Source of the DNA: a virus
Strand: one strand, 5' to 3'
Length of the DNA stretch: 39,262 nucleotides
Virus record (IMG/VR): IMGVR_UViG_3300044834_000097
Coordinates: 1-39,262 of that record
How positions within the stretch are numbered: position 1 is the first letter of the stretch; every line of letters begins with the position of its first letter. The position numbers and the translations under genes were made by a program. Positions 3,394 to 39,262 of this stretch are shown piece by piece. Below the pieces are notes generated by a model. It had not been told where the DNA came from. It ran no database searches and saw nothing but the letters and a program-made list of their open reading frames with translations.

Positions 3394-4107
3394 CTATACC
3401 CGGCGTTGCCGAAGCTGCAGGCCGGTGGAGTAAACGGCCGAGCAGAGCATCCCGTAACTCAATTCGTGGTTGGGGTCGAAGAATTCCGCGTAAAGAATGG
3501 TGGCGCCGGTAACGTCCATCGGATCCTCGACCTGGAACGGCCGGTTACCTTTCACCTTCGATCGCAGAAAGAAATTCCAGAGATAAGCCGCGCGGGTTTG
3601 CCGGCCGTTGGCAAAGGCCACCTTCGTCAAGCGGGTGCCGTCCGTCGCCAGCGCGATTGAGTTGCCCCCAACGCCGGCCGTGTTGGCCATTAGCTCCACG
3701 AACGCGCCGTTCGCTTCAGACGTGCAGAGTGTTGTTGCTGTGTCGGCGTTTACTTTGGCGACGATATTGAGGGCGGTGGCAATCGCCTCGCTGCCGATTA
3801 GAATTTGGTCGCCGCTGGGACTGGAGGTTTTGAAGGTGTAGGTCTTGCCGCCGATCGTCATCGTGTCGTTATTGTTTGGCTGGCTGGCCAGCGTGATTTT
3901 TCCGCGGGCGTTTGCGTCGACCATAAAGCCGGCCTGGTCCGGAAGAGTTTCAATCTTCAGATTCCACGATCGCAGACCATCAGGTGAACCGATGAGGACG
4001 CCGTCGCCATAGCCGTCGCCAAAATCCGCGGTTAAGACACTCACGGCCACACGAATCTCGTCGAAGAGAAAGCCGTCAGTGTTTAGCTTCTCGTAGTAAA
4101 TGGTCAT
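3394..4107 (-). CDS. minor tail protein, lambda gpM-like, with inserted domain
   Basis: 237 residues. The N-terminal part contains the FGDGYGDGV...LRSWNLKIETL pattern typical of the phage minor tail protein M family (FGDGY...W), and the C-terminal part resumes a tail-like beta-rich sequence. Between them (about residues 70-165) sits an inserted domain of the type GGKTYTFKTSS...IGSEAIATALNIVAKVNAD...GGNSIALATD, a beta/alpha repeat often embedded in phage structural proteins. The start overlaps the tape measure stop by 4 nt (ATGA). It probably sits at the tail tip between tape measure and hub. Confidence 0.7.
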   Translation of the reverse strand: MTIYYEKLNTDGFLFDEIRVAVSVLTADFGDGYGDGVLIGSPDGLRSWNLKIETLPDQAGFMVDANARGKITLASQPNNNDTMTIGGKTYTFKTSSPSGDQILIGSEAIATALNIVAKVNADTATTLCTSEANGAFVELMANTAGVGGNSIALATDGTRLTKVAFANGRQTRAAYLWNFFLRSKVKGNRPFQVEDPMDVTGATILYAEFFDPNHELSYGMLCSAVYSTGLQLRQRRV

Positions 4108-6890
4108 GGCAGACGCAGCCTCCTGCCCATCCCCTCGCCAATGCTCGCGTCATGATCCATGGCGCGATGCAGCCCTCGAGCGCCGGTCATTACGACGTGG
4201 TCAGCCGGCATTGATCGCAATCTTCCGATCTCCCCGCGCAGCTCACCGAGAACCGCGAGCAACTCCGGGGAGCTCGCTCCGCCGCCGCCGCCCATTGCGT
4301 TCATAGCGTCGCGGTGTGAAAGGAAGCGGCCGTTGGCAGGAGCGAGGAACGGCTCGGGCCCTCGCTCGCCGGTCCAATACATTTGACCTCGAACTCCGGG
4401 TCCGCCATGCGCGCGGCCGGCCCTGCCAGGCAGGGACTTTGGTGCCGACGAAGAACGAAACACGCCGCCCGGTTGAAGACCGCCGGCGAGCCCGGTTACC
4501 ACCCCGCCCCAATTTCCGACCAGGGCGTTACTGGCCATGCCCGCGAGCTGCGAAGCGATCGGCCCAACGCCGGGAATGAAGCTGAGGAAGGGCGCGGCAA
4601 ATCCGAGCAGCTTTGAAAGGAACCCTCGCTTTTTACCGACCTCGCCGCCACCACCGGGCATCATGCCGGCGACTTGACCGAGCGCTCCGGAAATCTGGTC
4701 AACCAGGCTGAGGCCTTTAATCAGCTCCTCGCGGGCGGCCGTCTGGTATTCCTTCGTCAAGGCGATCGCCGTGTTGGCGTGATATTTCTCAGCCTGAATT
4801 AACGGAGCCATCGCGCGCGGGACGACCTGCGACATACTCACAAACTCCATGCCGGTTGCTCGGGTGCTTTCGATGAGGTCATCTGCCGACTTACCGAAAA
4901 ACTTTGTTACGCGCATCAGCGGCGAGTCTTCGCCATAGACAAGGTCGTCGACGCCAGGAGCCTGGAAGTTTCCAAAGCGGCCGGCCATGGCGCCATCAGT
5001 TCCGCGCAGTTCGCTGAGGCCACGGTTTCCCTGAGCAAGCAGTCGGTCGAGGTATTGCCCCTGACCGGTGGAGATTTTCACCGGCATCGGATTGGAATCG
5101 TTGATCGCCGCGCCGCCCAGGAACTGATTAAAGTGAGACATCCAGGACTGCATTGACCTTTGGCCGCCGCCGCCGATTTTCGAGCCAGGTGTGCTGGTCC
5201 AGTCTTTGGCAGCAATGCTTCTCGCAACGCCGATGTTGCCGGACTGAAGCGCCGGCAGAGCTCCGCGATCGATTAGCATCTGCAACGCCGCGAGTTGTTG
5301 AGAGTGCTGAGAAAAGTCCGGAAGGCCCAGACGTTGCTGAAGCCCAGGCTTGCCTCGCTTGCCGTACCAGTTCGTGCCGGTGATTTGATAACTACCGGCG
5401 GCAGTGCTGGGCCCTTTCGCCGTGCGCAGCCCCACGATGTTCGGGTGACGAGAGAGATCAGAAACTGTGCGGCCGCCAACGATGCGGTTCGGCGCGCCGC
5501 CCTCAGCCCACTCGATGGTCTTGAGCAATGCCTGAATTTTCGGGTCCTGCAGTAGCCGCTCCAATGTGGCGACAATCTGGTCGCGGCCTTCCCCCTCGAT
5601 GAAGCCCTGGAACCTGCGAACCATCCCCACGCCGATGCCCTCGCCGATCGGCTCGCCGACTTCGCGCGCGCTTCGTCTGCTGGGAGTATTGATATCGAAG
5701 ACCCCGGGACTCTTGAGGCCCTTCATGACGAAATCGCCCAAGCCCGTAAGACTCTGCATCATCGACGATGGGCTGAAGTTCAAAAGTCCCTCAGCCACGC
5801 CGCCGCCGATACTGACGCCCGCCTTCAGACTCTTCTCGGTGAAATCGACCAGCATGCCCGCGTACTTGTCGATGAATCCGACGACTTTTTGCGCCTGCGG
5901 ACTGTTGAGGATCGCGTCGGCTTTTTCGTAGAAATCACCGATGCCGCGCGTGATGTTCTGGGTGCCCTCCATCGCGCGCAACTGCATTAGCACGCCGAAT
6001 TGACGCTCGCGGCCGGCCACCGTGGCGCCGGTGCGCGCGGCGGCGAACCCGCCCTTGTCGCGCTCGATGCCCTCGGCAATTAAACGCGCCGCCACCTCGC
6101 CCCGTATGCGGCCGGACGCTATTAGCTTTTCGATCTGTTTTTCCTGAAGTCCGGTCGCCTCCGCCAGAATCTTCTTCGCGTTAATCCCGACGCGGTAAAG
6201 CTTCTGAAGTTCCCTACTGCTGAGTTCGCCTTTCTCCGCGATGAGGCCAAGCGTGTCGGCAACCTTCTGGAACACCTCGACGCTACCCCCGAAGTCCGCG
6301 GCCTGATCGGTCGCGGCGCCCAGCAGCGAGCGCGTGAGTTTCAAATCACCCGTCAGATCGTAGAGCTTCTCGGAAGTGTCAATGAGGACTTGCGGCAGGA
6401 TGCCAACTTCCTTCGAGGTCTGCAGCAGCTCGTTAAGATACTTGTTGGCTTCCTGCTCGCTGCCGGCGAAGGTCTTGAATTCGTAGCGGGTCTCCTCGAG
6501 TAGCTTGTTCAGCGCAATCCCGCCGCTGATTTGTTCCAGAACCAGCGGAGTGACTTTCGATAACGCGCTATCGATCCCGCCACCGATCGCCGACCCGATC
6601 GCTGTGCCAATACCCGGGGCCACGGCCGTGCCGATCAACCCGCCCAACGTCGAGACGCTGAACGAGCCGGCGATTGACGAAACCGCGGAGGCACCGAAGT
6701 CCTTTCCGAACTTCGCCCCGGCGCCGGCGCCGTCGAAAGCCTTGCTGGCTTCCTTGCCGGCCTTCTTTAAGTGGTCGGTGTAGTGGGAGACCAGGCCTTC
6801 CTGCTTTTTGAATTCAGCGGACTGCTGGCGCGCGTCCAACTCCAGACGCGTTTGTAGCTTGAACGCTGTGATTGTTCGCTGTGTGGCCAT
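4104..6890 (-). CDS. tape measure protein with internal GH104-like muramidase
   Basis: 928 residues. It sets tail length and is ejected with the DNA. Residues ~1-60 are helical; ~70-125 form a Gly/Ala-rich hydrophobic stretch (GTAVAPGIGTAIGSAIGGGI). Residues ~130-290 look like the tape-measure N-terminal domain. Residues ~450-592 match the GH104 phage lysozyme pattern (TIEWAEGGAPN...IVGG, STAAGSYQ, LGLPDFS, ALQMLIDRGAL), with the probable catalytic Glu early in the domain, so the tape measure carries its own cell-wall hydrolase. The C-terminus has the usual GERGPEPFLAPANGRFLS tape-measure tail motif. It lies directly downstream of the frameshifted tail chaperones, the canonical order. Confidence 0.9.
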   Translation of the reverse strand: MATQRTITAFKLQTRLELDARQQSAEFKKQEGLVSHYTDHLKKAGKEASKAFDGAGAGAKFGKDFGASAVSSIAGSFSVSTLGGLIGTAVAPGIGTAIGSAIGGGIDSALSKVTPLVLEQISGGIALNKLLEETRYEFKTFAGSEQEANKYLNELLQTSKEVGILPQVLIDTSEKLYDLTGDLKLTRSLLGAATDQAADFGGSVEVFQKVADTLGLIAEKGELSSRELQKLYRVGINAKKILAEATGLQEKQIEKLIASGRIRGEVAARLIAEGIERDKGGFAAARTGATVAGRERQFGVLMQLRAMEGTQNITRGIGDFYEKADAILNSPQAQKVVGFIDKYAGMLVDFTEKSLKAGVSIGGGVAEGLLNFSPSSMMQSLTGLGDFVMKGLKSPGVFDINTPSRRSAREVGEPIGEGIGVGMVRRFQGFIEGEGRDQIVATLERLLQDPKIQALLKTIEWAEGGAPNRIVGGRTVSDLSRHPNIVGLRTAKGPSTAAGSYQITGTNWYGKRGKPGLQQRLGLPDFSQHSQQLAALQMLIDRGALPALQSGNIGVARSIAAKDWTSTPGSKIGGGGQRSMQSWMSHFNQFLGGAAINDSNPMPVKISTGQGQYLDRLLAQGNRGLSELRGTDGAMAGRFGNFQAPGVDDLVYGEDSPLMRVTKFFGKSADDLIESTRATGMEFVSMSQVVPRAMAPLIQAEKYHANTAIALTKEYQTAAREELIKGLSLVDQISGALGQVAGMMPGGGGEVGKKRGFLSKLLGFAAPFLSFIPGVGPIASQLAGMASNALVGNWGGVVTGLAGGLQPGGVFRSSSAPKSLPGRAGRAHGGPGVRGQMYWTGERGPEPFLAPANGRFLSHRDAMNAMGGGGGASSPELLAVLGELRGEIGRLRSMPADHVVMTGARGLHRAMDHDASIGEGMGRRLRLP

Positions 6891-10605: not shown

Positions 10606-12069
10606 TTACGAGCTCGGCAGGTTCTGGCAGAACTCAACCGGATAGCCGCCAAACTGGAACGGACCGGCGCCGGCGAGATCGGCCGGCGTCGCACCGCCCG
10701 ATGCCATCAGGATTTTGCGCAGGACGCGGAAGTAGAACGTCTGGTGACAGAAGAAGACCGGGCGAATGCCGGGATACCGTGGCAGCCGGCCCATCAAGTC
10801 GTTAAGGTGATCTGAAGTCACCGCCGCCCAGCTGTCGGTTCCCAGCATCACGATTGGGCCGGCTTTCCGTTTCGCGGCGTCACTGTCGGCATTGCCGGGG
10901 CTATGCGCGATAAAGTCCAGGCGCACGCGACCTTTGAGGTCGATCGTGTCGTTGCGGAAGGACGAATGCTCGCTCATCGCGATGGTGAGCGCGGAACGAT
11001 CGCCGAGCAGCGTGCCCAACCGCAGGTCGCCCAGCACCAGCGGGACTTTACTGATGGCGTTGATAGTGCCGGCTGAAATGACCAGGCCGGCAATGTTCGC
11101 CTTCGTAGTCGAGACGTTCAGGATCTTCTGAATGATGCCGACAACGCCCTGGTAACCGGTCTCCGCCTGCTCGTTGCCGGTGCCGTCGGCCAGGAACCCG
11201 AGATCGTCTTCAAGCCGGGCCTCAGCCAGCGTCATCTCATAAGCGAGATCGTCAGCCTGATTGACGGATGAATCTTCACTCAGTTCGCTGGTGATGTTCG
11301 CCAGGCACAACCACTTTTTGGCGACGAGTTTATTTCCGCCCCACTTCTTTTTCTCGATCTCGACGTCTTCGCCTTCGCCCGCGGCGTGAAATTGCAGGCC
11401 CCCCTCGCGACGCCGAATGTTCTTTGTCTCGGCGGCCATCGGCTCGATCTTCGCGTAGCGACGAACCACACCGAACTCTTCGTGGAGGTCGATGGTTTCA
11501 GGGGACCACTCTTCCTGTACGGTGAAGCCGCCGGCTTCCGGGTCACCCTCGCTCTGGCCTTCCGCGGCACGCTGCAGCAGCCCGTGCTCCTGCGCGTAGC
11601 GATGGGCCTTCGCGATCGCCGGGACGTGGCTCGCACCGGTGCGGCCGTAGAACGCGTTCGCGAGCAGGCCGTTCCAGAAACGGTAAGCCCGCAGATCACC
11701 GCCCTCGCCCTTGAACACGCGCAGGCTCGAGGTGCGGCGGCCAGGAACAATGACTGAGTTCTGTGGGGGCTTCGCGGTGTTAACCGCGGCGCGCGATGCA
11801 GTCTTTGCCTTTTCGACCGCGGCCTTGAACATGTCAAGAGTCATCGCTTCATCACGGCCGTAGTCGCGCGCGAGCTGCGTGAACGCGGTAGTCTCTTCCG
11901 GTGTGTCGGCGAACACTCGCGCCCATCCGGTGTATTCAGCCTGGCGCTGTGCGATCAGCTGTTCGGGCGTCAGTTGCGCGGGCGGTGGCGGAGCAGCGCT
12001 CCTTTGGCCGGTATGCACCGAGCAATTGTCCGTGTCGCATTCCTCGGCAGAGCGGGCGTTACATCGCAT
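10606..12069 (-). CDS. possible internally initiated scaffold-capsid product
   Basis: In-frame ATG at 12069 (residue 226 of the fusion) has AAGGAG 7 nt upstream, a better initiation signal than that of the full-length frame. It would yield a 487-residue scaffold plus major capsid protein beginning just at the second Cys/His motif, leaving the protease only in the longer product. This parallels internal starts inside phage protease-scaffold genes. Inference only; both products may be made. Confidence 0.5.
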   Translation of the reverse strand: MRCNARSAEECDTDNCSVHTGQRSAAPPPPAQLTPEQLIAQRQAEYTGWARVFADTPEETTAFTQLARDYGRDEAMTLDMFKAAVEKAKTASRAAVNTAKPPQNSVIVPGRRTSSLRVFKGEGGDLRAYRFWNGLLANAFYGRTGASHVPAIAKAHRYAQEHGLLQRAAEGQSEGDPEAGGFTVQEEWSPETIDLHEEFGVVRRYAKIEPMAAETKNIRRREGGLQFHAAGEGEDVEIEKKKWGGNKLVAKKWLCLANITSELSEDSSVNQADDLAYEMTLAEARLEDDLGFLADGTGNEQAETGYQGVVGIIQKILNVSTTKANIAGLVISAGTINAISKVPLVLGDLRLGTLLGDRSALTIAMSEHSSFRNDTIDLKGRVRLDFIAHSPGNADSDAAKRKAGPIVMLGTDSWAAVTSDHLNDLMGRLPRYPGIRPVFFCHQTFYFRVLRKILMASGGATPADLAGAGPFQFGGYPVEFCQNLPSS

Positions 12070-12744
12070 TGTCGTTCTCCTTCGTCGTTGGGTTCGGCCG
12101 GCGTGTACCGGGCAATTTGTTTCTTCGCAATCGTCAGCAGTTTCGGCGTCGCACTCTTCGTCGGCGGAGTCAATCTCGCGGCGCGCGTGCGTACGGCCGA
12201 TGCCGGATCGCGTGTCAGCTTCGGTTGACGCGAGCGTCCCCGAGAGCAGGGTCCAACGCGTCGCCCGAACTATGGGGAATTCATCAATGTAGCCTTCGAT
12301 CTTTGGTGAAATTCGTTCGACCGAAAACCAGGCCGACGTGCCAGGTGAATCGCCGTGCTTGAGATCCTCCTGAACCTCGCGGAAAATTTCGTCGGCGTAC
12401 GGGCGGCTGCTGAAACGGGTCTTTACTCGTAGCACATGGCCGTCAGTCACGCCGTCGCGCATCCGGCCAAGCCGGCGATCAGGGTCGTGGTTCTCGTCAA
12501 AGCACGCACCGAATTGCAGGCGCTCAAGGTTTATGGACTTTGCATCGTGGTCGAGGATGACGTAGCAGGCCCCGCGGCCGCTGATCCAGTGCAACACCGG
12601 CTCATCAGAAGTGATAGCCATCCGCACAGTCCGCGCATCGACATCGATGTCCGCTTTGGAAACTTTGAACGCGCGCTGGAGAGGCTGGCCGATTATTGCC
12701 TGGGCGGCGCGAACATTCTTGAATGGGATCATGCGTGTGGCCAT
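10606..12744 (-). CDS. prohead protease-major capsid protein fusion (HK97-like)
   Basis: 712 residues from ATG 12744; an open frame extends further upstream but overlaps the portal gene. Residues ~15-185 are an S78-type prohead protease: the FDENHDPDRRLGRM motif gives the probable catalytic His86, and GTSAWFSVE the Ser137. Residues ~260-330 look like a helical scaffold/delta region, and ~360-712 an HK97-fold major capsid protein (GGFTVQEEW..., ENSKWLC-like region, C-terminal FYFRVLRKILMASGG). Between protease and scaffold lie two copies of a C-x7-C-x4-C-x2-H motif (C198-H214 and C228-H244) flanking an in-frame internal start at residue 226 with its own AAGGAG. No separate capsid gene is seen. 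Confidence 0.85.
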   Translation of the reverse strand: MATRMIPFKNVRAAQAIIGQPLQRAFKVSKADIDVDARTVRMAITSDEPVLHWISGRGACYVILDHDAKSINLERLQFGACFDENHDPDRRLGRMRDGVTDGHVLRVKTRFSSRPYADEIFREVQEDLKHGDSPGTSAWFSVERISPKIEGYIDEFPIVRATRWTLLSGTLASTEADTRSGIGRTHARREIDSADEECDAETADDCEETNCPVHAGRTQRRRRTTMRCNARSAEECDTDNCSVHTGQRSAAPPPPAQLTPEQLIAQRQAEYTGWARVFADTPEETTAFTQLARDYGRDEAMTLDMFKAAVEKAKTASRAAVNTAKPPQNSVIVPGRRTSSLRVFKGEGGDLRAYRFWNGLLANAFYGRTGASHVPAIAKAHRYAQEHGLLQRAAEGQSEGDPEAGGFTVQEEWSPETIDLHEEFGVVRRYAKIEPMAAETKNIRRREGGLQFHAAGEGEDVEIEKKKWGGNKLVAKKWLCLANITSELSEDSSVNQADDLAYEMTLAEARLEDDLGFLADGTGNEQAETGYQGVVGIIQKILNVSTTKANIAGLVISAGTINAISKVPLVLGDLRLGTLLGDRSALTIAMSEHSSFRNDTIDLKGRVRLDFIAHSPGNADSDAAKRKAGPIVMLGTDSWAAVTSDHLNDLMGRLPRYPGIRPVFFCHQTFYFRVLRKILMASGGATPADLAGAGPFQFGGYPVEFCQNLPSS
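12077..12082 (-). promoter_or_regulatory. internal ribosome-binding site (AAGGAG) inside protease-capsid gene
   Basis: AAGGAG on the minus strand, followed by a 7-nt spacer and ATG 12069 in the reading frame of the fusion. It supports separate initiation of the capsid half. Confidence 0.55.
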
Positions 12745-12796
12745 CGGGGCGAGAAGATAGCGGAAACGCGAAAGGGTATTAGGCGGGGGGTGACAC

Positions 12797-14452
12797 TCAG
12801 CGGGCTGAAGCTTGGCCGTTTCGACGCAGAGACGGGGGTAATAGATGGTGCTGAAGTTCGGGCAGAACGCGGTTTGTTCCCTGGTCAATCGGCTTTCCGT
12901 TGGAGTCGGTTTCTTCGTCTTGCGCAGATGACGCCGCAGAGCTCGCTGCCGGCGTTCCCCCAGGAATGACCGGCCATTCAAAACCCGCATCTTCCAGGAC
13001 CCGTCTAACCTTCTTGAGTTTTTCGACCATGTCGAGCCAGTCTTCCCCGCGCTCAGCGGCATCGTCGATGGGGGTGTCGAGAAAATTGTTGATAGCGAGA
13101 ATCGTCGCCTGGATTTCCTTCAGCGGCTCGATTGAGGGCCAACCGCGGCCGCGCCAATCGAGACGCACACGGTTGAAGTCCTGCAGCGAAACATTCACCC
13201 GGCCCGCCATTATCGCCACGCGCAGGAACTCCCAGCCGACGACGCGATTGAAGTGTTCGCGCATCCACGTCTGGCGCGAACGGTAAGTGCTTTGCTCCTC
13301 AGTGCGGCCGGATTTGAGAGAAGAATAATTTGCGCCCTCGAGATCGTTGGCAAGTGAGGCGTAAGCCATCTCGAGGCCGGCCGCCGCGCGACGCAGTTGG
13401 GCTTTCGCAAACTCCGGAAAGTTCGGGTTCGGATGCTCGGGCATGAAGGTCTTGACGTCCCAGCCGGGCGGCAAAATCTGCTGCACACCGGGTTGCACGT
13501 CCTGTTCGACCGGCCGCTTGATCTTCTCCGGACCCTGCGCCTCGAGATCGTTCGGATCCGGAAGTTGCTCCTCTTCCCCCTTGGGCGGGATCAGGTACGG
13601 GAGATTGCACGCGGCAATGTGAGCGTTGACGAGCTCGGCAAAGAACGCTTCATCAAGAACCTTCAGCGTCATGCCTGCGGTGTGGGTCTCGGGATAGCCG
13701 CGCGCCTGGCTTTCGTCGTCTTTACAAACAAAGGCGTGAACCATCTCTCCCGCCGGCACGAACTGGCGGTGCCGCTCGCGACTGAATCGCGTCGATGCGT
13801 AGAGATACTCCGCTGCCGGCATCGTCAACCAGTAACCCACGGGCCGATCGTCATCATCCACCTCGACACTCATGATGATGCGGTTGCCGGTGTTTGGATT
13901 GACACCGTTGTAAAACTCATCCAGCCAAGCCACATCAATGAACTTCAGTGTGTAGCGAAACGGGTTGTTAGCGCCGATGATTCGCCGGATAAGCGCCTCA
14001 CCGTCACGGTCCATCTGGCGTTGCAAAAGGCGCTGCTGATCGACGAACGAAAGTTTGCCCGAGGCCGAAGCATTCTCTGCGTGACTCCACTCTTCAAACG
14101 CGCGCTCGATCTCTTTTACGATCGCCGCATCGTGCTTCTGTTGCTCCTCTGAGGGATCGTCTGACAGCGGCTCGAGGCTAACCATGAACGTGAAGCCGTT
14201 TGGACCGGGGATATTATTTTCCCGCAGTGACAGGTAGCGCTTGATATAGTCGTCATTCTGACCCAGGTTCCGCGAGCGGTTACGCACCGCGCGGAGCTGC
14301 GCGCGCAGCTCGCGGTTGGGCGCGATCGGGAAAGCTGACCAGTTGGCAGTGAGCCGATTGTGCTGGGCCATCGCAAACGCGCGTTTGGCCCCGCCGCTCA
14401 TCACGGCGCGGAAAGTTCGCAAGGCTCGTTTAGTGGCGGACCAGACTCTCAT
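12797..14452 (-). CDS. portal protein, lambda family
   Basis: 551 residues. It forms the dodecameric portal through which DNA is packaged and ejected. Typical lambda-portal landmarks are an N-terminal basic helical region, RNLGQNDDYIKRYLSLRENNI, the KFIDVAWLDEFYNG segment, LTMPAAEYLYASTRFSRERH, the HAFVCKDDESQARGYPE motif and GLEMAYASLANDLEGANYSSL. The start ATG overlaps the upstream 76-residue gene's stop (ATGA). It is followed by the protease-capsid fusion after a short gap. Confidence 0.92.
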   Translation of the reverse strand: MRVWSATKRALRTFRAVMSGGAKRAFAMAQHNRLTANWSAFPIAPNRELRAQLRAVRNRSRNLGQNDDYIKRYLSLRENNIPGPNGFTFMVSLEPLSDDPSEEQQKHDAAIVKEIERAFEEWSHAENASASGKLSFVDQQRLLQRQMDRDGEALIRRIIGANNPFRYTLKFIDVAWLDEFYNGVNPNTGNRIIMSVEVDDDDRPVGYWLTMPAAEYLYASTRFSRERHRQFVPAGEMVHAFVCKDDESQARGYPETHTAGMTLKVLDEAFFAELVNAHIAACNLPYLIPPKGEEEQLPDPNDLEAQGPEKIKRPVEQDVQPGVQQILPPGWDVKTFMPEHPNPNFPEFAKAQLRRAAAGLEMAYASLANDLEGANYSSLKSGRTEEQSTYRSRQTWMREHFNRVVGWEFLRVAIMAGRVNVSLQDFNRVRLDWRGRGWPSIEPLKEIQATILAINNFLDTPIDDAAERGEDWLDMVEKLKKVRRVLEDAGFEWPVIPGGTPAASSAASSAQDEETDSNGKPIDQGTNRVLPELQHHLLPPSLRRNGQASAR

Positions 14453-29807: not shown

Positions 29808-30025
29808 CACCGGCCTCCGTTCGCGATTGCCGAGCTGAAAGCCATCCGGGCGTCACTGAGTTTTCGCAGGGCGGCCGTCTTGCCCGGTCCGTCCGGAATA
29901 ACGTCATAGATCGCTTCGACCAGGCTCACGAACACGGCATTGACCAGTTCGTATTTCGGCAGCGTCTCCCCGTTCGGTGCTTTGTAGCGGAACATTTCGA
30001 TTGCTTCTTCTTTCGTTCTCATCAT
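29807..30025 (-). CDS. Acb2/Tad1-homology (DUF7681-like) protein, candidate anti-CBASS sponge
   Basis: 72 residues. The pattern FRYKAPNGETLPKYELVNAV, then SLVEAIYDVIPDGPGKTAAL and RKLSDARMAFSSAIANG fits the compact helical Acb2 family: xY-x-P near the N-terminus, a Tyr/Lys pair, a central IPDGPGKTAAL helix cap (family: P.S.EKxxAL), and the C-terminal ANxAIA-type helix. Acb2 proteins bind cyclic di- and trinucleotides and block CBASS immunity. The start overlaps the ParB-related gene (ATGATG), the end overlaps the Ubl-like gene. Assignment is from motif memory. Confidence 0.6.
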   Translation of the reverse strand: MMRTKEEAIEMFRYKAPNGETLPKYELVNAVFVSLVEAIYDVIPDGPGKTAALRKLSDARMAFSSAIANGGR

Positions 30026-31005
30026 TTCCCCTTTCCGTTTAGCTGTTCGACAATTTGCGCGAGGACCATTTGCGGCATGCGCGGCAGTTCGTGCGTTGCC
30101 ATCGTCTGCCGGGTCGCCTCGCTGCCAGGGCCACGACTAACCGAAACCGTCACGCCCGGCACCTTCGGGATAAAGATGAACTGAATGTAAAGCGGCTTAC
30201 CGTTCAGCAGCTCCGCAATCGGTTTTTCTTTCTTGCCCTCGCCGATCATCCCAGGAGCCGGCCCGGCCGGCACAGGCGACCTCGCCGTACCGTCCTCGTT
30301 AACTCGCCGCTTGTCGGTCACCGCCGGCGCGCAAGAACTACACAGATCGTCTTCGACCCAATAGCACCCGCCCGGGCAGGGCTTGCTATCAGTGCAGCCG
30401 CACTTCCGGCATGGGTGCTTTCGCGTTTTCTTCCGCTGTTTGGCCTTGCCGATTTTGGCGGTCGATCTCGCGACGCCATCGGCGCCAACTCGCTTCGCCG
30501 GCCGGGCACTCAAAACGTTCTGAGTGGCCTTTCCCCGCTCGCCCTTTTCAGGCGGGACCAGATTCTCCGTCTCTCGGCGCAAGGCCGAAACGAACGGCTG
30601 CGAAACCTTTGCGCGACGCGCAATCACGCCGTCGCTCCAGCCGACCCATTCATCGTCAGCCAGAATCGTCCGGACAGCTTTCCGCTTGTCAGCGTTCGAC
30701 CGGGGCAGGCCGTGTTCGGCGTTGGCGCCAATCGCAAACAGGGTTGCTTCGCGCACGCCACCCTTCCTCACGCTGGCCGGGATGCCGCCTTTCATTCCGG
30801 TCTTCTCGAACGCAGCGACGCGATGCCAGCCGTCAGCCAGCCAGTTCACTTTGCCATCGAAGAAAACAACGATCTCCGGAAAGCTCTCTATGCCGTCGCC
30901 TTCCTCCATCGCCTCGGCAAAGCGACTGACCGTTGCCTGGTCCAGCTTCTCGCGCATTTGCGTCGCCGGGTCCCGACGAATGTCTTTAATTTCCAGTCTC
31001 TTCAT
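30022..31005 (-). CDS. ParB-related DNA-binding protein with zinc-finger insertion
   Basis: 327 residues. The N-terminal ~90 residues are ParB/Srx-like (EIKDIRRDPATQMREKLDQ, then VNWLADGWHRVAAFEKTG). A helix-turn-helix follows (WSDGVIARRAKVSQPFVSAL). At ~195-225 there is a zinc-binding block with a cluster of Cys (CRKCGCTDSKPC, PGGCYW, DLCSSC). The C-terminal part is basic then beta-rich. ParB-related proteins are one defining member of PRTRC cassettes. A role in regulation or DNA maintenance is possible. Contains one copy of the dispersed palindrome. Confidence 0.8.
   Translation of the reverse strand: MKRLEIKDIRRDPATQMREKLDQATVSRFAEAMEEGDGIESFPEIVVFFDGKVNWLADGWHRVAAFEKTGMKGGIPASVRKGGVREATLFAIGANAEHGLPRSNADKRKAVRTILADDEWVGWSDGVIARRAKVSQPFVSALRRETENLVPPEKGERGKATQNVLSARPAKRVGADGVARSTAKIGKAKQRKKTRKHPCRKCGCTDSKPCPGGCYWVEDDLCSSCAPAVTDKRRVNEDGTARSPVPAGPAPGMIGEGKKEKPIAELLNGKPLYIQFIFIPKVPGVTVSVSRGPGSEATRQTMATHELPRMPQMVLAQIVEQLNGKGK
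30508..30523. repeat. dispersed palindrome copy D (CTCAAAACGTTCTGAG)
   Basis: Nearly perfect palindrome within the ParB-related coding sequence (one mismatch between arms). It may be chance, as it is coding. Confidence 0.35.
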
Positions 31006-34181: not shown

Positions 34182-34937
34182 TTAGGCCGCGGCCTCCGCA
34201 GCCATAGGCGCCGCCTTCAATAGCTCAATCAACTTCGCCGCGCCGCGTTCTATGCCGGCGTCATAATCAGCGGCACGAGCGGCAAGAGCGGCACGAGCGG
34301 CAAGAGCGGCAAGATCGGCACGAGCGGCAAGAGCGGCAAGATCGGCACGAGCGGCAAGAGCGGCAAGAGCGGCAAGATCGGCAAGAGCGGCACGAGCGGC
34401 AAGAGCGGCAAGATCGGCAAGAGCGGCAAGAGCGGCAAGAGCGGCACGAGCGGCAAGAGCGGCAAGATCGGCAAGAGCGGCAAGAGCGGCGTCCGGAGAC
34501 TTCATGGCGTCCGCGACGGCGTTGATGTACCGCGTAATCGAAACCCGCTGCGCATCATTCGGCTTCAGTCCCTCGAGCAAGCCTTCTTTCGGATCCAGCC
34601 AGGCCCAGAGGAAAAAGTCGGCGACAATCGATGAGAGGTCCGCGCCGACCTGGATTGCGGTAAGGAAATCAACCGGCCAGTTCAGGGCGGTTTCGCCCGC
34701 GGGCAGCCATTCGAAAATCGTGTCCTCGACGCGCGCCAGGGCCTCAGGGATGCCGAGCTCGGTCTCATAGGCGTGATGGTCGCTTCCGTGAATGGTGCAA
34801 CCGACCGCGCAACCTTTCCCGTTCTTCCAGTATCCGTAGCCCTGAACAATTTCATCCGCGGCGCGGTGTGCCATCACGCGCGCCAGGTATTTTTCCTTAA
34901 TGGCGGGATCGCCGTGGAATGCCACTAATGCTGTCAT
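34182..34937 (-). CDS. phage early protein with 24-unit Ala-rich tripeptide repeat
   Basis: 251 residues from ATG 34937 (GAGGAGG 7 nt upstream). Residues 1-145 are a known type of phage hypothetical domain: MTALVAFHGDPAIKEKYLAR, GKGCAVGCTIHGSDHHAYET, LGIPEALARVEDTIFEWLP. Residues 151-222 are 24 uninterrupted tripeptides, each ALA, DLA or ARA, followed by ADYDAGIERGAAKLIELLK. The repeat should form a long Ala-rich helix. Related phage proteins have imperfect versions at this place; this copy is perfect at DNA level. Confidence 0.75.
   Translation of the reverse strand: MTALVAFHGDPAIKEKYLARVMAHRAADEIVQGYGYWKNGKGCAVGCTIHGSDHHAYETELGIPEALARVEDTIFEWLPAGETALNWPVDFLTAIQVGADLSSIVADFFLWAWLDPKEGLLEGLKPNDAQRVSITRYINAVADAMKSPDAALAALADLAALAARAALAALAALADLAALAARAALADLAALAALAARADLAALAARADLAALAARAALAARAADYDAGIERGAAKLIELLKAAPMAAEAAA
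34272..34487. repeat. 9-bp minisatellite, 24 perfect units of three variants
   Basis: On the plus strand units are GGCAAGAGC, GGCACGAGC or GGCAAGATC, differing at only two positions, with no other substitutions in 216 bp. They encode ALA, ARA and DLA on the minus strand. The absence of silent drift implies recent expansion or homogenisation. Confidence 0.95.
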
Positions 34938-35005
34938 TGGCTGCCTCCTCATTTTGTCTTGTTACGGGCCTTTCGCCCGTGTTACTATCGCGCCTGATAC
35001 TATGC

Positions 35006-35311
35006 TCAAGCAACCGCGGCCTCTTCTATCCCAAAGCGCGCCTCATATTCGGCGCGCAGATTCCCGGCGACGGCGGTCCAGTTCGGCTCGCCGCCCCAGA
35101 GCGCCTCATACATCATGTTCAGATACAGGCAGAGTTTGACGCGCACCCGCTCGTTGCGACGGGCGCGCGAAATGGTTTCAGACAGCCGGCGATCGTTCTC
35201 GCCGATCTCCATTGCAACACCCTTGATGTCTTCGTTACGCAGGGCCACGAGGGCGCTGAGTTGGCTGGGCGGGATGCCCTGAGAATTTAATGTCTGCGGG
35301 GTCTGATTCAT
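35006..35311 (-). CDS. Cro-like or first early protein
   Basis: 101 residues from ATG 35311. The central part (LSALVALRNEDIKGVAMEIG, then RRLSETISRARRNERVRVKL) has the layout of a small HTH with an RR-containing helix, and the C-terminus reads MMYEALWGG. It is the first gene of the leftward operon, divergent from the CI-like repressor, i.e. the position of Cro. The transcript from the early promoter would have a leader of about 40 nt. Confidence 0.6.
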   Translation of the reverse strand: MNQTPQTLNSQGIPPSQLSALVALRNEDIKGVAMEIGENDRRLSETISRARRNERVRVKLCLYLNMMYEALWGGEPNWTAVAGNLRAEYEARFGIEEAAVA

Positions 35312-35330
35312 GTTATCGTGACGGCGACTG

Positions 35331-35348
35331 CGGAACTTCCCGCAGGTC
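35331..35348. promoter_or_regulatory. operator-like repeat 1
   Basis: CGGAACTTCCCGCAGGTC on the plus strand; the first part forms an imperfect palindrome (GCGGAAC/TTCCCGC). It lies just downstream of the predicted early transcription start. It matches operator-like repeat 2 at most positions. Confidence 0.55.
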
Positions 35349-35359
35349 GAGCGCGGCGC

Positions 35360-35388
35360 AGCATACGGAATTCCCGCAAGTCTGTCAA
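35360..35388 (-). promoter_or_regulatory. leftward early promoter (TTGACA-17-TATGCT)
   Basis: On the minus strand a perfect -35 TTGACA (35388-35383), a 17-nt spacer, and -10 TATGCT (35365-35360). Expected start near 35353. The spacer contains operator-like repeat 2, so a bound repressor would block it. Confidence 0.75.
35366..35382. promoter_or_regulatory. operator-like repeat 2
   Basis: CGGAATTCCCGCAAGTC, a direct repeat of the element at 35331, 35 bp away centre to centre, with a palindromic core CGGAATTCC(C)G. It fills exactly the promoter spacer. Confidence 0.6.
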
Positions 35389-35412
35389 ACTTCTGATGCG
35401 ATAAAACCGAAG

Positions 35413-35880
35413 TTGAGCGAACCGAGTACATTCGGTCGGCGTTTGAGGCAGGCGTTCAAAGGCAAAAAGAATGCGGAAATAGCCAAGCTATTGAACGTCG
35501 GGAACTCTACGGTCACGGATTATATGAAGGGTACGAGTTACCCGACCGGCGATGGCTTTCTTAGAATTGCGGGAATAACGAAGTGCAGCCTTCATTGGTT
35601 GCTGACCGGCGAAGGCGAAGCGGACCTCGATCCCCTTCGATTCCTGGATGACCGCAGCCGCAGCGTCGTCGAACGCCTGGCGTCGATCGCTCGCCAGAGC
35701 CCGGAGGAGATGCTAGCCGACCTCACAGTCGAGGCTCTCACCCGCCGCGCGGCCGAGATGCTGGAAAATTACCGGCAGCTCGACGGCGCGCAGATTGACC
35801 AACTCCACGCCATCATGTCTCTGATTGATTCCCCGGAAGATGAGGCGGCGGCCGGCAACACTCGCCGCGCCAGCCGGTAG
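35413..35880 (+). CDS. CI-type phage repressor
   Basis: 155 residues if started at TTG 35413, which follows a GATAAA that could be a -10 box; the frame is open from an ATG at 35290, but that start would place the operators inside the gene. Residues ~5-70 are an HTH of the phage CI type (FGRRLRQAFKGKKNAEIAKL, NVGNSTVTDYMKG, LHWLLTGEGEADL). The C-terminal half is helical and charged with no S24 autopeptidase domain, so RecA-stimulated self-cleavage is not expected. Convergent with the TPR gene; stops are 2 nt apart. Confidence 0.75.
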   Translation: MSEPSTFGRRLRQAFKGKKNAEIAKLLNVGNSTVTDYMKGTSYPTGDGFLRIAGITKCSLHWLLTGEGEADLDPLRFLDDRSRSVVERLASIARQSPEEMLADLTVEALTRRAAEMLENYRQLDGAQIDQLHAIMSLIDSPEDEAAAGNTRRASR

Positions 35881-35882
35881 GT

Positions 35883-37187
35883 TTACTTCTTGACGATCAT
35901 GCTGCGGTGCCGCGGGCGGCGGTTGGAAGCCGGCCGCAGTTCCTGATGCCTGGTCTTCAGGATGAAGGACATAGCCTGCTGACTCTCGCCGAGCCGCACG
36001 CCGGCCGCCGTGACATTGCCGCCGGTCTCCTGCAGCGCCGCGCGAATTACGCTGGCTTCGAACGTGAGGCGCGCATGGTCCAGCGTCGCGTGGCCACTCA
36101 AGCATACCTCACCCGCCAACTCGCTAATCATCTCGAGCGCAATCTCGCTCGCCTGCCGGCTGCCCAGCCGATCGCCGGCCAGTGTGTACGCGCGAACATA
36201 AACCGTCAGGGCTGATTGGTCCTTTAGCCGCGCCAATGTCCGCGCATGGGTGACGAGGGATCGGCAGAGCAGCGCGTGTTCGTCGCCGGCTTCGAAAATC
36301 TCCACCGAGCGGCGCGCGGCCGCTTCGGCTTCGGCAAAGTTTTCTTCCTCGAGATAGCAGAGAGCGCGCGAGTCGCTCAGGTGTCCGCGGTGAAGTTCAT
36401 CACTGACACTGCGCGCAAGACGTTCCGCGCGGTGCAGCTCCAGATGCGCCGCCGAAAAGTTCCGCGCCTTTCGATAGAGGTTGGCCAGATTGTTAATGGC
36501 CAGGATCCGCCCGATCGTATACCCCGCCTGTTCGAAGTGATGAATGGCCGCCGTGATTTCGATAATCGCCGCATCGATCGCGCCCAGGTTCTCGAGCGCG
36601 TTTTCCAGCGCGGTGTAGTAGTGGCCCTTTAGCAGATCGCCGGGAGTGTGAGTGACCGGCGCCGCCATTTTTCGTAAGCGCGCCAGGGCCTCCGCATTGC
36701 GCCCGTCGTTGATTTCAACGATCGCGAGAATTAGCTGCAGACAAATCCACAGTTCATTCTTCGACGGGCCGAGTCGCTCGAGCGCGGCCGTTGCGATGGC
36801 GCGCGCCTCAGGGAGTGAGCCTTCGCGCCAGTAACACAACGCCAGTGATTTCTGCGCCCGGCCCCAGCCGGCTAGATCTCGCGCGGATTCAAAGCGCGCC
36901 GCCGCTTCGCTTAGCAGGTCCTTTGCTCTTTCCTGCCAGCCCTCGATCTGTTTCTTACTTCCCAGCCAGGCAGTCAGGCTTCCCGCGCGGGTAAGGAGCT
37001 CGCCGGCAACGTGGTCAGGGAGGCTATTGACATCCGGCCGGGTGCCCGGCCCGCTCCAGAAAGGCGCGAGCAACTCACAGGCCTCCTCGTACTCGCCGAT
37101 CTCCTCACGCGCTTTTGCCGCATGACAACACGTCTCGATCCGCGCCGAGGCTTTCTGGGGAAAGGTGAGAACTGATGGGCCGGCCAA
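35883..37187 (-). CDS. TPR-repeat regulator with C-terminal Fis-type HTH
   Basis: 434 residues, TTG start. Residues ~10-370 are helical hairpins of TPR type (e.g. AREEIGEYEEACELLAPFW, GWGRAQKSLALCYWREGSLP, LAINNLANLYRKARNFSAAH, SRALCYLEEENFAEAEAAAR). Residues ~375-425 carry a Fis/NtrC-type HTH (VIRAALQETGGNVTAAGVRL, GESQQAMSFILKTRHQEL) and a basic tail (RRPRHRSMIVKK). This architecture recalls a family widespread in Blastocatellia. TPR regulators commonly sense peptides. It is divergent from a small exported peptide gene, with a palindrome between them. Confidence 0.8.
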   Translation of the reverse strand: MAGPSVLTFPQKASARIETCCHAAKAREEIGEYEEACELLAPFWSGPGTRPDVNSLPDHVAGELLTRAGSLTAWLGSKKQIEGWQERAKDLLSEAAARFESARDLAGWGRAQKSLALCYWREGSLPEARAIATAALERLGPSKNELWICLQLILAIVEINDGRNAEALARLRKMAAPVTHTPGDLLKGHYYTALENALENLGAIDAAIIEITAAIHHFEQAGYTIGRILAINNLANLYRKARNFSAAHLELHRAERLARSVSDELHRGHLSDSRALCYLEEENFAEAEAAARRSVEIFEAGDEHALLCRSLVTHARTLARLKDQSALTVYVRAYTLAGDRLGSRQASEIALEMISELAGEVCLSGHATLDHARLTFEASVIRAALQETGGNVTAAGVRLGESQQAMSFILKTRHQELRPASNRRPRHRSMIVKK

Positions 37188-37218
37188 AGTTTTTGACTCC
37201 GCTAGTCTTTGACGCGTA

Positions 37219-37232
37219 ACAAGAAAACTTGT
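37219..37232. promoter_or_regulatory. palindrome ACAAGAAAACTTGT, copy 1
   Basis: Perfect inverted repeat ACAAG-AAAA-CTTGT between the TPR regulator and the small exported protein gene, overlapping the -35 box of the latter. An identical 14-bp element is at 37705. Candidate binding site of the TPR/Fis-HTH regulator. Confidence 0.6.
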
Positions 37233-37257
37233 GCTTTGAAATTGCCCGTTCTATCAT
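37229..37257 (+). promoter_or_regulatory. promoter of small exported protein gene
   Basis: TTGTGC (37229-37234), 17-nt spacer, TATCAT (37252-37257); expected start near 37264, giving a ~20-nt leader with GAGGAG before ATG 37284. Confidence 0.55.
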
Positions 37258-37283
37258 CCGCGCCACAACGAGGAGAACGCGCA

Positions 37284-37526
37284 ATGAAAAAACTTTTAGC
37301 AACTCTAGTCATCCTGACCGCACTTGCAGCACCCTGCTTGGCTGACTGCACCGACCCGGGCCAGACCAATTCACCCCCGGGGCCTGGACCCCAATGCTCG
37401 ATTGCGACAACGAACCCAGACGATCCCGGCGACGCGCTGACCCTACCAGTCAGCGAGGTCAAGGCTGAGGTTGGTTTTGATGGTGTAGTCAGGAGCATCA
37501 TCCTGCTAGCGATTTCCGTTTGGTAA
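37284..37526 (+). CDS. small exported protein, candidate signalling pro-peptide
   Basis: 80 residues from ATG 37284, with GAGGAG 8 nt upstream. Residues 1-20 form a Sec signal peptide (MKKLLATLVI..., cleavage predicted after A20). The mature ~60 residues contain two more Cys, the segment DCTDPGQTNSPPGPG, an acidic middle (NPDDPGDALTLP) and a hydrophobic C-terminus (VRSIILLAISVW). Small exported proteins with DPGQTxxPP segments next to TPR/HTH genes seem recurrent in acidobacteria, from memory. Divergent from the TPR gene with a shared palindrome. The role as pro-peptide is an inference. Confidence 0.6.
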   Translation: MKKLLATLVILTALAAPCLADCTDPGQTNSPPGPGPQCSIATTNPDDPGDALTLPVSEVKAEVGFDGVVRSIILLAISVW

Positions 37527-37704
37527 GCGGGCGATTAGTCACCGCGGTCAAAATAAAACACGCTGTGGTAAAAAAGTTCGTGCCGATGGGCGATGAGCAA
37601 ATCGGCGTGTGTCCGGAGCGCCGTCTGAAGCTGGGGCGGGGTTGAAAATACCACAACTCGCCCGAGTAGCAACAACTTTTGCGGGCTTCGGCCGCGACCG
37701 CCTC

Positions 37705-37718
37705 ACAAGAAAACTTGT
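37705..37718. promoter_or_regulatory. palindrome ACAAGAAAACTTGT, copy 2
   Basis: Identical to the element at 37219-37232. It ends 2 nt before the -35 box of the upstream promoter of the xre-integrase operon. The stretch 37527-37700 between the small gene and this site holds no recognised gene; only a short inverted repeat (ACTCG-CC-CGAGT around 37654) was noted. Confidence 0.6.
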
Positions 37719-37720
37719 TA

Positions 37721-37749
37721 TTGCTCCGGGGCGGAAGCTCGGCTATACT
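37721..37749 (+). promoter_or_regulatory. promoter P1 of xre-integrase operon
   Basis: TTGCTC, 17-nt spacer, TATACT; expected start near 37756, leader about 65 nt. The palindrome copy 2 lies immediately upstream. Confidence 0.6.
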
Positions 37750-37780
37750 AACGGGCGTGATAGTATCCGTCAAGCTACTG

Positions 37781-37809
37781 TTGCGCGCGTGAGGGTTTTT
37801 GCGTATAGT
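37781..37809 (+). promoter_or_regulatory. promoter P2 of xre-integrase operon
   Basis: TTGCGC, 17-nt spacer, TATAGT; expected start near 37816, only about 4 nt before ATG 37820, so transcripts from P2 would be nearly leaderless. Confidence 0.5.
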
Positions 37810-37819
37810 GCGCGCCCAA

Positions 37820-38053
37820 ATGGCACACAACCGCTGGCGGTTCGGAATCCGGGAGAAATTCATCGCGAAGGGGCTGAACACGGGTTACAAAATCCAAAAG
37901 GAAATGAACAAGGCAAACCCAGCCGACGCGATGCGACTCCTCAACGCGGACCGAAAACAAATCACTATCGATACCATCAACGAACTTTGCGAATTCTTTG
38001 GCTGCGCGCCCGGCGATCTGTTCGTCGCCGACAAGCCCAAGTCGAAGAAGTAA
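37820..38053 (+). CDS. Xre-family HTH regulator
   Basis: 77 residues from ATG 37820. The sequence fits the HTH_26/YozG-like Cro/C1 fold: RFGIREKFIAKGLNTGYKIQ, ...MRLLNADRKQITIDTINELC, EFFGCAPGDLFVAD. Short basic tail. It is 15 nt upstream of the integrase in the same operon and probably autoregulates or controls integration. No clear ribosome-binding site, consistent with near-leaderless expression. Confidence 0.75.
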   Translation: MAHNRWRFGIREKFIAKGLNTGYKIQKEMNKANPADAMRLLNADRKQITIDTINELCEFFGCAPGDLFVADKPKSKK

Positions 38054-38068
38054 CCGGAGGTCAATCTG

Positions 38069-39262
38069 ATGCCACGAGGATTCAAAGACGGTAGTGTCCG
38101 TGAGACGCAGCCGGGCCGCTGGGTCGTGCGCCGGCGTTACACCAACCTGAAGGGCGAACAAAAAGAAAAGAAGCGCATCGCTTTTTCTGCCACTGAAGCT
38201 GTTCGCCTGAAGCGCAAAATCGATCGTGACATAGAAAGCGAACTCGCCGGGGCCGCGCCGACGGTCGCCCGTGCACGTAGTTTCTCCGACCTGGTGACGT
38301 TTTGCCGCCAGCGGGAAGTCGCGCCGGCCGAGTACTCAGGCGAAACAAAGATCGCCGGAATGAGATCGTGGAAGTCGGCAGAGAGTTATCTAAAAACCCT
38401 CGGGGCTTTCTTCGGCCCGATGTCGATAGCGGCAATCACCTATGACGATCTGCTGGATTACAAGCGCGAGCGGCTGAAAGGTAAAACTGAGCGCGGCGGG
38501 CGGCGATCGATCGCGTCGGTCAACCGAGAGTTGACACTCCTGCGCAAACTCTTCTTCGTCGCCCTTCGTGAGCGATGGATTACTGAACATCCTTTTCACC
38601 GCGGCGCCCCGCTGATTCAGAACGCGGACGAGGTTGAGCGGATGCGAATTCTCACCTTCGACGAGGAGGAGAAGCTGCTCACCGTTTGTACGGGAATGCG
38701 CGCGCACCTTCGACTGCAACTGATCTTCGCTCTCGAGACAGGAATGCGCCAGAACGAACAATTGACGCTCACCCTCTCGGACATAGACCTCGAGGACGGG
38801 ATCATTGAACTCCGGGCGTTCAACTCTAAGACCGCCCGGCGGCGCGTCATTCCGATCTTCGGCCGTCTCGCGCGGGAGCTACAGATCGAACTCGGCGGGT
38901 TGGCTCGCAGGAATGCGAAGCCGGAAGATCTTCTGTTCGGAACCGGCAAACCGCGCCAGGCTTTCACCAGGGCGTGCGAGCTGGCCGGGATCGAAGGGCT
39001 CCGCTGGCATGACCTGCGGCACACGGCCATCACGCGAATGCTTCACACCTACGGTCTGCAGTCGGCTGAGGTGATGAAGATCTCCGGACATACGAATCTC
39101 AAAACGTTTTTGAGATACGTGAACATCGACCGCGAAGTCGCCCGATCGATAGCCGCTCGAGTCGACGCGGCAAGGGCCGTGCCTCAACCGGTGCCGTCAA
39201 TCATTCCGGCCGCTGAAGCCCCGGAGATATTCGACATGGGTGACATTGGGGAGGCGGGGTAG
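38069..39262 (+). CDS. int: tyrosine recombinase, phage integrase
   Basis: 397 residues, complete; stop at the last base. GGAGG lies 8 nt before ATG. N-terminal arm-binding-like part (RWVVRRRYTNLKGEQKEKKR), SAM-like core-binding domain ~100-185, and catalytic domain ~195-370 with R227 (ALETGMRQNE), K254 (FNSKTARRRVIPI), H314-x-x-R317 (LRWHDLRHTAITRM), H341 (ISGHTNLKTF) and nucleophile Y350 (LRYVNI). All six catalytic residues are present, so it should be active. It catalyses site-specific integration and, with an excisionase, excision. The attachment site must lie beyond the window. Confidence 0.95.
   Translation: MPRGFKDGSVRETQPGRWVVRRRYTNLKGEQKEKKRIAFSATEAVRLKRKIDRDIESELAGAAPTVARARSFSDLVTFCRQREVAPAEYSGETKIAGMRSWKSAESYLKTLGAFFGPMSIAAITYDDLLDYKRERLKGKTERGGRRSIASVNRELTLLRKLFFVALRERWITEHPFHRGAPLIQNADEVERMRILTFDEEEKLLTVCTGMRAHLRLQLIFALETGMRQNEQLTLTLSDIDLEDGIIELRAFNSKTARRRVIPIFGRLARELQIELGGLARRNAKPEDLLFGTGKPRQAFTRACELAGIEGLRWHDLRHTAITRMLHTYGLQSAEVMKISGHTNLKTFLRYVNIDREVARSIAARVDAARAVPQPVPSIIPAAEAPEIFDMGDIGEAG
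39098..39114. repeat. dispersed palindrome copy E (CTCAAAACGTTTTTGAG)
   Basis: Perfect arms CTCAAAA/TTTTGAG with a 3-nt centre, within the C-terminal part of the integrase gene next to the catalytic Tyr codon. Being coding, it may be fortuitous. Confidence 0.35.

Follow-up and report, generated by a model that had tools for sequence, protein, structure and literature searches.

A putative regulated secreted-cargo module, with its own TPR regulator, between the repressor and integrase genes of a temperate phage

Analysis of one complete IMG/VR virus record, 39,262 bases in length (the whole of which is referred to here as the window), identified a pair of divergent genes lodged between the CI-like repressor and the integration genes of a temperate phage, one of them encoding a TPR protein with a C-terminal HTH of the Fis type and the other a small protein that carries a signal peptide. 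We favour, with moderate confidence, the reading that these two genes form a regulated secreted-cargo module, which would possess its own regulator, would be tied to integration, and would occupy the repressor-integrase slot of its phage. That reading draws upon the architecture of the locus, upon a dyad that is repeated in front of the integration operon, and upon the contents of the same slot in phages with related integrases.

Organization of the locus

The window encodes terminase, portal, head, tape measure and integrase genes, and the gene order at its right end is CI-like repressor (+), TPR gene (-), 80-aa gene (+), xre (+) and integrase (+) (Table 1). The repressor and TPR genes are convergent and separated by a gap of 2 nt, while the start codons of the TPR gene and of the 80-aa gene are divergent and lie 96 nt apart; ORF coordinates and domain matches thus confirm the placement of the pair between the CI-like repressor and an xre-integrase operon, as given in the original prediction. 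The stop codon of the integrase gene (39260-39262) coincides exactly with the end of the record, as if a provirus boundary had been trimmed at that point. Searching the window with Rfam and for tRNAs returned no matches.

Elsewhere in the window, the minus strand contains a 256-aa ORF (34182-34952) with a long alanine/leucine-rich repeat (ALADLAALAARA...), where a second open frame corresponds to a Leu/Pro repeat; a tape-measure-like protein (4104-6890) that also displays matches to endolysin/lysozyme families (phrog_90, phrog_17230); an 818-aa ORF (10606-13062) that matches both major head and head-protease families (phrog_4523, phrog_617) and overlaps the portal ORF at 12797-13062; and, within the leftward early region, a ParB-like protein (30022-31005; phrog_1033).

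Table 1. Features at the right end of the window (a dot in the strand column: no strand assigned)
Feature	Position	Strand	Basis or remark
CI-like repressor	35290..35880; start perhaps TTG 35413	+	Phage_CI_repr 5e-8
Candidate CI operators, putative function (TTCCCGCARGTC)	35331..35388 (repeats at 35337-35348 and 35371-35382)	.	differ from dyad
TPR protein of 434 aa, HTH of Fis type at C-terminus; putative transcription regulator that responds to a ligand	35883..37187	-	Pfam TPR_12, HTH_8
Dyad ACAAG-AAAA-CTTGT, TPR/80-mer divergent promoter region	37219..37232	.	centre about -38 from predicted 80-mer start site
Predicted 80-mer promoter, TTGTGC-17-TATCAT	37229..37257	+	consensus match only, weak; -35 overlaps dyad
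Secreted protein of 80 aa (mature part 60 aa) with Sec/SPI-like signal peptide; C-terminus hydrophobic (FDGVVRSIILLAISVW)	37284..37526	+	ORF, signal-peptide scan
Second, identical dyad, upstream of xre-integrase	37705..37718	.	centre about -44 from predicted start site
Predicted xre-int promoter, TTGCTC-17-TATACT	37721..37749	+	consensus match only
Small Cro/CI-type XRE protein, 84 aa	37799..38053; ATG at 37820 possible	+	HTH_26 6e-7
Tyrosine integrase	38069..39262	+	PF00589 9e-21; phrog_1 4e-48

The TPR protein and the secreted protein

The original prediction had described a 434-residue TPR protein with a C-terminal Fis-type HTH and, divergent from it, an 80-residue protein with a signal peptide and a hydrophobic C-terminus, and both descriptions were upheld. 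In the first of these proteins, TPR_12 was matched with an E value of 3.1e-6 over profile positions 9-75 of 77 (at 27.7 bits, which is below the Pfam cut-off of 30.1), and HTH_8 was matched at residues 376-400 of 434 (3e-4, and above the Pfam cut-off in a six-frame search), with the TPR repeats preceding it. The gene begins with a TTG codon that has the sequence GGAG 9 nt upstream, and its codon score of 0.30 is typical for the genes of this phage. AlphaFold models produced without an alignment were too poor for fold comparison, both for the TPR protein (all-helical, with a mean pLDDT of 48) and for CI (pLDDT 56).

Relatives of the TPR protein were found neither in viral contigs (including by motif scans, for which the motifs were drawn partly from putatively similar proteins), nor in genome contigs, nor in phage or plasmid records; these scans detect exact short words or near relatives, so the family may nonetheless occur in bacteria. 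Genome contigs that were scanned with an integrase alignment also gave no match. TPR-Fis proteins of a similar kind may occur in Blastocatellia, which provides a lead only.

The gene for the 80-aa protein is preceded by a ribosome site (GAGGAG), and its product carries a Sec/SPI-like signal peptide (MKKLLATLVILTALAAPCLA/D) that was called by a rule-based scan of our own together with inspection. The window has three ATG ORFs that combine an SD sequence with a signal-peptide-like N-terminus, a number well above chance, since shuffled windows average 0.05. The codon score of the gene is near zero, so that codon usage speaks neither for nor against it. No relative of the protein was found in Pfam or in plasmid or phage records, and PADLOC gave no defence match. 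A short-word scan of viral contigs produced three matches that cover residues 1-32 only, which are mostly signal peptide; matches in Gordonia phages, with E values of 4 or worse, were dismissed.

A repeated candidate operator

The divergent promoter region of the pair and the region upstream of xre-integrase contain an identical 14-bp dyad, ACAAGAAAACTTGT, which occurs in exactly two copies in the window and accounts for all of the ACAAN6TTGT sites found there. When both intergenic stretches were shuffled, a common 14-mer of any kind appeared in 3 of 20,000 trials, and a repeated 5-4-5 dyad arose somewhere in 15 of 200 shuffled whole windows. The dyad was absent from the other loci compared. 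A description of the element as a perfect palindrome was ruled out: its two 5-nt arms are inverted repeats of each other and enclose a central AAAA (5-4-5). Its centre falls at about -38 from one predicted start site and about -44 from the other, a position that suits an activator or a repressor alike.

A different repeat, TTCCCGCARGTC, surrounds a near-consensus leftward promoter (TTGACA-17-TATGCT, 35388-35360), and its copies are likely to be the CI operators. Because this repeat flanks the repressor's own promoter, CI is disfavoured as the binder of the dyad, and the candidates are then the small XRE protein and the TPR regulator; we infer from the two sets of repeats that CI works at the TTCCCGCARGTC region and that the dyad goes with one or the other of those proteins. 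The geometry of the dyad (ACAA-N6-TTGT, across 14 bp) is that of 434-type XRE operators, which slightly favours XRE. Since the dyad is common to the promoter region of the pair and to xre-int, the pair appears to be wired to the integration operon through a common candidate operator.

The presence of that dyad in front of xre-int, together with the convergence of the TPR and CI genes across a 2-nt gap, might also suggest that the TPR protein responds to a metabolite or protein of the host and functions as an antirepressor or as a regulator of integration, with the 80-mer as an unrelated neighbour. However, the candidate CI operator differs from the dyad, and known antirepressors display no homology to the TPR protein; we regard this explanation as very improbable.

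The same slot in phages with related integrases

Three viral contigs with integrases related to that of the window were available for comparison of the slot. In the first (L005, with an integrase 60% identical to that of the window), a 313-aa signal-peptide protein is encoded between the repressor and the integrase, and in the other two (L034 and L036, both with approximately 43% identity) the same position is held, respectively, by a 193-aa protein with a signal-like N-terminus and by a 289-aa ORF that has an internal signal-like segment and an uncertain start codon. The three slot proteins are mutually unrelated and are unrelated to the 80-mer, and no TPR match was found in the record of the L005 phage, nor in L034 or L036. 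Beyond the integrase, the L005 phage and the window have little in common. Taken together, these arrangements, drawn from a small sample, point to the repressor-integrase stretch as a cargo slot that would favour secreted proteins, and they display the pattern that is looked for in morons (that is, a gene that varies at a fixed phage position and that relatives lack). In L036 (phage G014), at 10873-11348, the integrase is followed by tRNA-Arg(CCT) and then by a gene for an M20 amidohydrolase, an arrangement that points to an attachment site at the tRNA and to flanking host DNA.

The variable secreted cargo in the slot of these phages, the XRE-type (434-like) geometry of the dyad, and the fact that neither gene has phage relatives in the collections scanned would all agree with a passive moron, in which both genes are putative host-derived cargo that, once the host is lysogenized, acts on its envelope or its genes and takes no part in phage regulation, and in which the dyad serves as an XRE operator that does no more than time the expression of the cargo. 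A dedicated regulator of 434 aa is nevertheless large for passive cargo, and we consider this explanation unlikely.

For the regulated secreted-cargo module that we prefer, we infer a ligand, a binder of the dyad, and a role for the 80-aa protein as follows. The TPR protein would act in the cytoplasm as a DNA-binding regulator, sensing a ligand through its alpha-solenoid; its C-terminal Fis-type HTH would act on the common promoter region and hence would control the secreted protein, a relationship that is assumed from the divergent arrangement of the two genes; and the repeated dyad would allow a single DNA-binding protein (either the small XRE protein or the TPR regulator) to co-ordinate the module with integration.

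Peptide signalling as an alternative

The RRNPP_detector signature consists of five generic criteria and an architecture filter (PMC10075063). With regard to the generic criteria, the pair comprises a candidate propeptide of 80 aa (range 10-100 aa) with a Sec/SPI signal peptide by our own rule, and a candidate receptor of 434 aa (range 250-500 aa) in which TPR_12 is matched at E 3.1e-6 (E<1e-5 and coverage >65%), though below the Pfam cut-off, and the two genes are separated by 96 nt (range -60 to 400 bp), all of which agrees with the published values (PMC10075063). The architecture rule, according to which the TPR region is C-terminal and the HTH, where present, is N-terminal (PMC10075063), filters the pair out, because here the TPR repeats lie at the N-terminal side and the HTH at the C-terminal end. 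The original prediction had itself noted that contrast with RRNPP proteins, including the Fis type of the HTH, and the location of HTH_8 behind the TPR repeats bears it out. No homology of the TPR protein to RRNPP receptors was found in NCBIfam or among PDB sequences, AimR gave no match, and AimP_fam scored 11.9 bits against the 80-mer (cut-off 35), across signal-peptide residues 1-15 only. The failure of the architecture rule and the absence of a match to RRNPP families or structures together place the pair, as judged from its sequence, outside the RRNPP group.

The broader proposal was that of an arbitrium-like module, in which the 80-mer would be exported and cut, and a short peptide, probably from its hydrophobic C-terminus, would be taken up again and bound by the TPR regulator; the regulator would thereby govern transcription of the 80-mer and of xre-int and, with it, the lysogeny decision. 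The anatomical part of that proposal stands, in that the pair fits the five generic criteria, lies beside the lysogeny genes, and has a dyad in common with the integration operon, but the pair falls outside RRNPP, and the phages with related integrases carry, in the same slot, unrelated secreted proteins of 193-313 aa and no TPR regulator, which favours cargo over signalling. Nor was a co-conserved partner found in the collections scanned by short-word or near-relative searches. The arbitrium-like scheme is, in our assessment, rather unlikely; more doubtful is the claim that the locus represents an independently evolved peptide-communication switch outside the Bacillota, in which the TPR receptor would read a peptide cut from the 80-mer and act at one operator before both the peptide gene and xre-integrase.

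To our knowledge, arbitrium-type phage peptide communication has so far been described for phages of Bacillota. A receptor-propeptide-like pair that displays another domain order, and that appears to be tied to integration genes by a common candidate operator, offers a small and testable candidate elsewhere; even if the pair is cargo, the locus would represent a phage slot that has repeatedly gained secreted proteins, and has done so once with their own sensor-regulator.

Comparison with known systems

RRNPP(A) pairs, including phage AimR-AimP, resemble the present pair in that a TPR regulator of 250-500 aa adjoins a small ORF with a Sec signal, near lysogeny genes (PMC10075063, PMC6458997). 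They differ in that the known systems belong to Bacillota, whereas here the HTH is C-terminal and of the Fis type and there is no sequence match to the family, and in that validated RRNPP propeptides are 21-50 aa in length, such that the 80-mer is longer (PMC10075063, PMC6458997). Fis and the C-termini of bacterial enhancer-binding proteins have HTH_8 in common with the TPR protein, but the latter has no AAA+ module, and its HTH is instead fused to a TPR solenoid. MalT-like LuxR regulators are TPR regulators with a C-terminal HTH, and therefore exhibit the same order (sensor solenoid first, HTH last); unlike theirs, the HTH of the TPR protein is of the Fis rather than the LuxR type, and an NTPase domain was not seen in it. 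Finally, morons (lysogenic-conversion genes) located between repressor and integrase are similar to the present locus in providing a secreted protein within a variable slot beside the integrase, whereas the 80-mer is accompanied by a dedicated regulator and by a candidate operator common to xre-int.
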